Source of the DNA: a virus
Direction: 5' to 3' (one strand)
IMG/VR virus record: IMGVR_UViG_3300042453_001570
Coordinates: 1-37,302 of that record
Length of the DNA: 37,302 bases
The first letter of the stretch is position 1, and each line of letters starts with the position of its first letter. The translations under genes and the position numbers were made by a program. Below the pieces are notes generated by a model. It saw nothing but the letters and a program-made list of their open reading frames with translations, was not told where the DNA came from and did no database searches. Below, piece after piece: positions 10,942 through 21,410 of the stretch.

Positions 10942-11132
10942 ACTACCGACAAAGGGGGCGTAGCCCCCCCATGCCCCCCGTCGGTCACGCGCGCACCCGT
11001 CCGACCGCGCATTTGCGCACGCACCCGCCCATCCGCAAAGCCCCCCAAAAAAATGCCGAGCCTCACGAGCAGGCGGGCGGGCGAGTACGGAACGACCCTG
11101 TTGCGAATCGGCACATATACGCGGGCGGGGGT

Positions 11133-11144
11133 GTGCGTCATAGA
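11133..11144 (+). repeat. GTGCGTCATAGA repeat, copy 1
   Basis: Exact copy preceded by a G-rich stretch. GCACA upstream can pair with TGTGC of the repeat. No gene start follows closely. Confidence 0.7.
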
Positions 11145-11214
11145 AGGGGGGCAATTCAGTCGATGGCACACGCCATGTCCACCGAGCGTCGCAACGCGGC
11201 GAGCGGGTGGGGGG

Positions 11215-11226
11215 ATGCGTCATAGA
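11215..11226 (+). repeat. GTGCGTCATAGA repeat, copy 2
   Basis: One mismatch at the first base (ATGCGTCATAGA). It is preceded by a run of G's, lies 82 bases after copy 1, and its upstream pairing is weaker than in the other copies. Confidence 0.65.
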
Positions 11227-11298
11227 CGGAGGGTGCTGTTACGGTGGTCATGCTGTCCACGCTGTAACGGTAGCACACACACGCTTGCTGGTGGGGGT

Positions 11299-11310
11299 GT
11301 GCGTCATAGA
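11299..11310 (+). repeat. GTGCGTCATAGA repeat, copy 3
   Basis: Exact copy 84 bases after copy 2. Upstream GCACAC pairs with GTGTGC. The ATG of the 77-aa gene lies about 30 bases downstream, behind AAAGGAG. Confidence 0.7.
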
Positions 11311-11339
11311 GTGACGGCAACAATAACAAAGGAGCCAAC

Positions 11340-11573
11340 ATGGCACGCAAAGCAACACAGGTTATGGGCGGTTACGCCCGAGTCGGGGCTGATTGGACGG
11401 TGGGATTCCCTGCCGACAAGGCTCCCAACGAGGGTGCGACCGTGCAGGTTCGCAAGGTGGATGGTGAGGTGAACGAGGTTCGCGTGAAGCGGGCTGTTGC
11501 GGTCACGATTCCTGCGAATGACAATGCGATTCCGACGGTGTTCTTCACTTACGCGAAGATTGCGAAGAAGTAG
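11340..11573 (+). CDS. Small beta-rich protein followed by a ribozyme
   Basis: A 77-residue protein with an excellent ribosome site (AAAGGAG, 6 bases before ATG). The pattern WTVGFPADKAPNEGATVQVRKVDGEVNEVRVKRAVAV resembles small phage domains of alternating beta strands with W near the start and a G-x-x-V-x-V turn. I do not recognise a function. The sequence is strongly basic at the end (YAKIAKK). Its TAG stop supplies the first base of stem II of the hammerhead ribozyme, so its mRNA would be cut about 30 bases after the stop codon. The strong signal and upstream promoter suggest high expression. Confidence 0.8.
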   Translation: MARKATQVMGGYARVGADWTVGFPADKAPNEGATVQVRKVDGEVNEVRVKRAVAVTIPANDNAIPTVFFTYAKIAKK

Positions 11574-11630
11574 GACGAAACACGGGGGTTCGCCCCCGTG
11601 TCCACGGATTTTGTCCGTGCTGATGAGTCC
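11573..11630 (+). ncRNA. Type II hammerhead ribozyme
   Basis: All conserved core bases are present in the correct permuted order. Stem II is open: GGAC (11573-11576) pairs with GUCC (11627-11630), including the conserved C-G pair next to the core. GAAA is 11577-11580. Stem III pairs 11580-11588 with 11593-11601 (nine perfect pairs, A-U next to the cleavage site) around a UUCG loop (11589-11592). The cleavage triplet GUC is 11600-11602, so the cut falls after C11602. Stem I pairs CACGGA (11603-11608) with UCCGUG (11614-11619). CUGAUGA is 11620-11626. Confidence 0.93.
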
Positions 11631-11650
11631 AACAACATAGGAGGCGAGTT

Positions 11651-11797
11651 ATGCGTAGCGAGGACAGTAAGGTTATGCCGAAGGGCGATTATTGTTGCCC
11701 GAAGTGCGAGAATAGGGTTACCCTGTTTGTTCGGGTGTCCGAGGTGGTTTGTGGTCGCCACACGCAGGGCGTGGTGGCGATGGTTCGGTCAAAATAG
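11651..11797 (+). CDS. Small zinc-ribbon protein
   Basis: A 48-residue protein from ATG 11651 behind AGGAGG. It has CCPKC near residue 15-19 and CGRH at residues 34-37, a likely C-x2-C...C-x2-H zinc site. It is the first gene after the ribozyme, so its mRNA would begin at the new 5'-OH end produced at 11602/11603. Ribozyme cleavage could therefore separate its expression from that of the upstream gene. Function unknown. Confidence 0.75.
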   Translation: MRSEDSKVMPKGDYCCPKCENRVTLFVRVSEVVCGRHTQGVVAMVRSK

Positions 11798-11886
11798 TTC
11801 GCAATGCGGTGAGGGCGCACAGGGTAATCCCCTGCCTTGTGCGTCTGACTCCATGGTGCGGAACCATGGCTACAATAGGAGCGATT
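11798..11886 (+). other. Intergenic stretch with two hairpins
   Basis: GCGCACA and TGTGCGT (one wobble) enclose a second GGG/CCC pairing, and CCATGGT pairs with ACCATGG around GCGGA. The region ends in AGGAG, the ribosome site of the next small gene. It has no T-run and no coding frame of note. Confidence 0.45.
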
Positions 11887-21183: not shown

Positions 21184-21410
21184 TGCCATACATCCTTAGC
21201 GTTATCGGCGTTACCGCCATGCTGGTAATCGGCTCAGGCAAATGGTGGGGCTGGGCAATTGCTTTCATTAACGAGTGCCTGTGGGTCGGGTTCGCCATTA
21301 CGACACGGCAATACGGATTCATTCTTGGCGCAGCGTTTTATGGCACGGTTAATGCCTACAACGCTTATAAGTGGAGGCGCAACCACACAATCATAAGGGT
21401 AGTCAGATGA
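21183..21410 (+). CDS. Small membrane protein with two or three membrane spans
   Basis: A 75-residue protein from ATG 21183 (GTG 21180 possible), overlapping the previous TGA. Hydrophobic spans are about 4-18, 24-42 and 46-58; WVGFAITTRQYGFILGAAFYGTVNAYNAYKW resembles one repeat of PnuC-type nicotinamide riboside carriers but is far too short to be one. It ends in a basic tail. Its ATGA overlap couples it to the HslV-like gene. Function unknown. Confidence 0.7.
   Translation: MPYILSVIGVTAMLVIGSGKWWGWAIAFINECLWVGFAITTRQYGFILGAAFYGTVNAYNAYKWRRNHTIIRVVR

Follow-up and report, generated by a model that had tools for sequence, protein, structure and literature searches.

A type II hammerhead ribozyme overlapping a stop codon in a phage early operon, and its probable role in forming a hairpin-ended upstream mRNA

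The early, plus-strand operon of an uncultured tailed phage contains a complete type II hammerhead ribozyme at positions 11573–11630 of the window, a linear 37.3-kb virus record. Its identity as a hammerhead is near certain, and its placement against a stop codon is the rule for its type II relatives and is not peculiar to the window. We consider it probable that the ribozyme acts in cis and that its selected function is to release the upstream gene as a separate mRNA ending in a hairpin. Ribozymes of this kind most likely make hairpin-ended, gene-length mRNAs.

The minus strand of the window encodes terminase, portal and scaffold genes, and the plus strand helicase, primase-like, nuclease and RusA genes. 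Beyond the divergent non-coding region, the first two small genes are those that flank the ribozyme. The upstream gene (11340–11573, plus strand) encodes 77 aa, ends in a TAG stop at 11571–11573, and belongs to no Pfam or PHROGs family. An alignment query with this gene returned homologues in two loci only, L121 (80% identical) and L122 (70%). The downstream ORF (11651–11797, plus strand) encodes 48 aa and is preceded by a GGAGG ribosome-binding site at 11640–11644. The preliminary description called it a zinc-protein gene, a label taken only from a CxxC...C/H pattern; the ORF has no Pfam family and may encode a zinc ribbon. BLASTN of the region against isolated phages gave no match.

Read on the plus strand, the element runs GGAC, GAAA, CACGGGGG, UUCG, CCCCCGUG, UC, then the cut, then CACGGA, UUUUG, UCCGUG, CUGAUGA, GUCC. 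In the minimum free energy fold stems I and III are closed and stem II is open, the order that defines type II. Stem II consists of four pairs between GGAC (11573–11576) and GUCC (11627–11630). The core GAAA follows its 5' strand at 11577–11580, and the last base of this core, A11580 (A15.1), pairs with U11601 as part of the stem III hairpin, which spans 11580–11601 and has 9 bp (11580–11588 with 11593–11601) and a UUCG loop. The NUH cleavage triplet required 5' of stem I is present as GUC at 11600–11602, which puts the predicted cut after C11602, where the preliminary description had placed it. The stem I hairpin CACGGA/UCCGUG with its UUUUG loop (11603–11619) would form the 5' end of the downstream product; it has 6 bp (11603–11608 with 11614–11619), or 7 bp counting a U-G pair. 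The core CUGAUGA was read in the sequence at 11620–11626, and together with it and GAAA the G10.1-C11.1, A15.1-U16.1 and C15.2-G16.2 pairs are all present, both in the sequence and in the model alignment. The conserved A that neighbours stem II on its 5' side (11572) is here the middle base of the TAG stop, so that the stop codon ends in this A and the first G of stem II. The overlap at base 11573 noted in the preliminary description is therefore real.

An unconstrained RNA fold returned exactly the expected three-way junction (−31.6 kcal/mol, z −4.2), and none of 200 shuffled sequences folded as well. Relatives were gathered from phage sequences with the pattern GACGAAAC-N-GTC-N-CTGATGAGTC, which matched at least 119 stretches, compared with 5 for the reversed pattern; stems I and III also formed in 134 of the 142 matches listed. 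A covariance model, R1, was trained on 32 hammerheads of other phages, with the window and its orthologue L121 left out, and scored the window ribozyme at 72.4 bits (E 2e-17). The window holds no second hammerhead by this model, the next best place scoring 11.1 bits. In the alignment of the 32 relatives 99.5% of cells were paired and the covariation score was 0.878, compared with 0.150 when shuffled. Changes on both sides were seen for all six stem I pairs and for six stem III pairs, 12 of 18 overall; stem II is invariant in this set and hence uninformative on covariation.

At this locus the nearest relative is L121, where a hammerhead, 3 nt beyond the stop codon of the first gene, again separates the two genes. 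Its core is identical to that of the window and stem I differs by compensatory changes, while stem III has been entirely rewritten, with 13 bp against 9 in the window, so that compensatory changes are found in both stems. The base-by-base check, the fold and the independent model thus uphold the assignment made in the preliminary description, and the invariant core suggests that the ribozyme self-cleaves. That the motif is instead a chance match, a relic or a simple intrinsic terminator hairpin is scarcely credible. Such a reading would fit the failure of the window to reach any Rfam family at gathering thresholds, but it is opposed by the E-value from an independently trained model, by the covarying stems of L121, by the reversed-pattern control and by the lack of a U-tract terminator at the site. 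A chance match is ruled out. A terminator search found no site at 11580–11610, and there is no U tract at stem III.

The second relative with the same gene pair, L122, has no hammerhead at the junction, and the ribozyme is therefore dispensable between the 77-aa and 48-aa genes. L122:4243–4330 contains, in order, a short hairpin directly after the stop, a minihelix resembling a tRNA acceptor/T-arm (GTGTGCG...GGGTTCGATTCCCG TCGCACAC) and another hairpin. ARAGORN called no tRNA there; the minihelix might take the place of the ribozyme as a substrate of RNase P. The idea that this tRNA-like hairpin recurs as an RNase P element replacing the hammerhead was rejected: apart from one coding-like repeat, no further locus has the pattern, which stays a single observation.

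Terminases related to that of the window occur in 162 contigs. R1 hammerheads are present in 9 of the 29 whole records of the phage group that were examined, with 1–4 copies each, and are thus recurrent but not universal in it. The group members that have none contain no known Rfam ribozymes and two tRNAs only.

The preliminary description proposed scoring the segment with the Rfam Hammerhead_II model (RF02276) and named the lack of a hit above threshold as one part of a refuting outcome; taken literally, that part was observed. The fold is shared, but RF02276 gave no match in the window even when E values as high as 5 or 10 were allowed, and the orthologue L121, which aligned with it end to end, scored 22.5 bits, under the gathering cut-off of 37. 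However, none of the 37 R1 matches of at least 50 bits, from 15 loci, reached Rfam gathering either. Only two Rfam hammerheads were found in those 15 loci, both at places where R1 scores lower. Since all 37 strong relatives were missed as well, we attribute the miss in the window to a gap in the Rfam model, whose type II family describes a pseudoknotted form. Pseudoknots were counted where loop I could form at least 4 Watson–Crick pairs with the 3' tail, and the counts were compared with chance. Among the matches listed, the class with a GGAC/GTCC stem II showed no excess (7 of 77, 11.4 expected), whereas other type II matches did (18 of 43, 11.2 expected; 13 with at least 5 pairs). The window reaches 4 pairs only by opening its closing pair. 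The GGAC/GTCC class is marked by a 4-bp stem II, a flanking A and a loop I of 5–6 nt. The A precedes stem II in 76 of the 77 GGAC/GTCC matches listed, at a base outside the search pattern, and in 145 of 146 of all relatives listed; loop I begins with U in 75 of the 77. The window ribozyme belongs to this common, pseudoknot-free type II form that lies outside the Rfam model. In the main-text passages of Perreault et al. (PMC3088659) most type II hammerheads are described as pseudoknotted, with at least 4 pairs joining loop I to the 3' tail, a pairing that the class of the window does not have above chance. The same passages put pseudoknot use at about 40% of hammerheads and note that many lack one, so a form without it is not unheard of. 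The hammerhead class as such was correctly described as known, phage type II examples having been reported since 2011 in that paper.

Both forms occur together in L060 (1649–7241), where about 12 type II hammerheads lie on one strand over 5.6 kb, nearly one per gene boundary. This array mixes pseudoknotted copies (TTGGTA loop, TACCAA tail) with GGAC/GTCC copies, and Rfam recognises only 2 of the 12. A phage contig that carries a type II hammerhead also has a Type-P5 twister ribozyme (L071:745–803, 45.2 bits). The Phycicoccus jejuensis and Streptomyces iakyrus assemblies (L207 and L208) hold the same three R1 hammerheads with identical scores, which reflects either a shared phage or cross-contamination of two NRRL assemblies.

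Placement relative to coding sequence was examined in 131 distinct type II copies that had enough flank among the matches listed. ORFs of at least 40 aa were called mechanically by length and the nearest ORF stop was measured. Stem II had a stop no more than 15 nt away in 106 of these 131 listed copies, leaving 25 without a called stop in that range, and in 54 the stop abutted or overlapped it. By comparison, a stop lay that close to 50 of 655 random positions taken on the same strand (8%), and to 16 of 131 on the opposite one. Clustering by upstream sequence left the result in place (100 of 121 copies listed). Stem III is a stable hairpin, with a minimum free energy of −6 or lower, in 144 of 145 copies listed, and hammerheads in one contig share one strand with the single exception of L064. 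About two hundred similar ribozymes were compared in all; the search patterns fixed part of stem II, and the samples are therefore a slice of all phage hammerheads.

Hammerheads of types I and III were taken from a scan with the pattern CTGATGAGTCC-N-GGACGAAAC. Among the matches listed, a stop was found within 15 nt in 81% of type II, in 26 of 64 type I (38 had no called stop in range) and in 1 of 29 type III copies, the difference between types II and III having a P of 1.5e-15. The distance to the stop is about 30 nt greater in listed type III copies than in type II copies. The topologies differ in what the cut leaves upstream: in types I and II this product has the stem III hairpin at its end, which is lacking in type III. 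Were a 3' hairpin under selection, one would expect type III copies to have it at another place. In the first type III sample a stable hairpin lay between stop and cut in 24 of the 26 listed copies with a nearby stop. The prediction was recorded beforehand and the count repeated on two fresh type III sets, where the extra hairpin was present in 40 of 42 listed copies, against 48 of 236 (20%) control intergenic stops in the same loci (P 2.7e-21). After clustering of both samples it was found in 47 of 49 listed copies, and in 31 of 33 when the hairpin segments had to differ.

This extra hairpin might be regarded as a folding aid that stacks coaxially on the open stem III of type III, in which case it would say nothing about mRNA 3' ends. 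Its position allows this, as it adjoins an open stem III of 4–5 bp and ends 0–1 nt before it in 44 of the 47 copies listed. However, it faces the stop codon, from which it begins at most about 10 nt away in 43 of the same 47, and a folding aid would require a coincidence, since the types that end in stem III sit at the stop without an extra hairpin. We regard this explanation as very improbable. Alternatively, the hairpin could insulate the ribozyme from upstream RNA. At L381, L387, L390, L406 and other type III loci, from different phages, the extra hairpin frequently combines the core GTGTCTTCAAAGACAC with an outer stem that varies.

We propose the following sequence of events at the window site. 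Once the polymerase has passed 11630, the RNA would fold and cut itself co-transcriptionally after C11602. A ribosome terminating at the stop covers stem II, and cleavage is therefore expected before or between ribosomes. Type II is the only classical order that would leave a closed hairpin at the cut on both products. The mRNA of the 77-aa gene would close with the 9-bp stem III hairpin, which begins a few bases beyond the stop codon and would bear a 2',3'-cyclic phosphate; for this end the predicted energy is −17.8 kcal/mol. On the downstream mRNA, the first nucleotide would carry a 5'-OH and open the stem I hairpin; the ribosome-binding site of the next gene comes after this hairpin, and transcription of this mRNA would continue after the cut. 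Hairpin ends slow 3' exonucleases. Cleavage would thus do the 3'-end job of an intrinsic terminator, blocking these enzymes, but would not end transcription, and it would set separate mRNA levels for the two genes. The hairpin presumably affects the stability of the upstream mRNA. An intrinsic (rho-independent) terminator likewise gives a GC-rich hairpin at the mRNA end just after the stop. The ribozyme differs in having no U tract and in making its end by cleavage, so that the downstream genes stay transcribed.

The preliminary description emphasised the 5'-OH mRNA freed for the downstream gene. The cut is expected to produce such an mRNA, but this is not the best-supported function, as it is the upstream 3' hairpin that is conserved across types. 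The ribozyme could serve the downstream gene by giving it a fixed 5'-OH leader with the stem I hairpin, in the manner of the synthetic insulator RiboJ, and this hairpin might protect against 5'-end-dependent decay or standardise translation. Consistent with this, the downstream products of types II and III both have stem I as a hairpin at their start, 120 of the 131 type II copies listed are followed by a start codon within 60 nt, and GGAGG precedes the next gene in the window. We nevertheless think it unlikely that the leader, or either of these effects, is what the ribozyme is for. Tight spacing is to the upstream stop, which 54 of 131 listed copies abut, and stem I is not predicted as part of the best fold of the isolated downstream product of the window. 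Stop-proximal type I copies listed have a stem III at the upstream end with a median of −9.55 kcal/mol and a downstream product that lacks a 5' hairpin (median −2.2 kcal/mol), and type III adds its hairpin on the upstream side. Because type I lacks a downstream hairpin and type III adds an upstream one, the upstream 3' hairpin is the feature common to the three types. A downstream 5' hairpin was rejected as a universal feature, given the type I copies that have none.

Cleavage might also act as a down-regulator. In the case of glmS, the 5'-OH downstream product is reported to be degraded after cleavage, and 5'-OH ends are decay signals in some Gram-positive hosts. Degradation of the 5'-OH product here would lower downstream expression or uncouple its translation, and the position of the ribozyme would suit this, the two genes having no other junction between them. 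We hold it to be quite improbable: an array such as that of L060 would silence most of its operon, and the added type III hairpins would go unexplained.

Whether the release of a hairpin-ended upstream mRNA extends to a general role is evenly balanced in our judgement. On this broader account phage-operon hammerheads of any permutation are 3'-end-forming devices that replace internal terminators, and the ribozyme of the window falls in an abundant, pseudoknot-free type II subfamily that Rfam does not recognise. Ribozymes in place of internal terminators would cut an operon into gene-length mRNAs and keep downstream transcription. Within the account, stem III would serve as the end in types II and I and a dedicated added hairpin in type III, a division of roles to which we give about an even chance. 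The three types share the core, the intergenic phage setting and a hairpin-ended upstream product near stops. They differ in permutation: type III depends on a separate hairpin, and in type I the downstream product is without one.

The type II hammerheads described in the 2011 passages (PMC3088659) share with the window the core, the strand order with open stem II and the prophage setting, and likewise flank single genes or short blocks. Those passages suggested that long phage transcripts are processed to gene-length mRNAs and demonstrated that tandem copies cleave in vitro. Neither the stop-codon rule nor the 3'-hairpin rule appears in these passages, and no paper stating the latter was found in a search of open-access texts. 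To our knowledge the 3'-hairpin rule is new. The purpose of bacterial and phage hammerheads has been stated as open since 2011 in passages of PMC3088659, PMC6155905 and PMC10085705. A positional rule that ties topology to stop-codon distance, and that was repeated on a fresh sample, allows simple tests of that purpose. Surveys based on Rfam overlook a large group, and the abundance of hammerheads in phage operons is therefore underestimated.

Further features were observed in the window. Upstream of the 77-aa gene, at 11121–11320, are three 34-nt direct repeats (GGGGGTGTGCGTCATAGA...) spaced by 82–84 nt; similar copies occur in L121, and at the divergent junction such repeats may belong to a promoter or an origin. 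After the 48-aa ORF, a strong double hairpin (GCGCACAGGG...CCTTGTGCGT and CCATGGT...ACCATGG) at 11806–11876 belongs to no Rfam family and is missing from L121 at that junction. An ORF of the early region at 21371–21985 matches the Pfam Proteasome family at 26.3 bits (cut-off 22.4), which may hint at an actinobacterial host.
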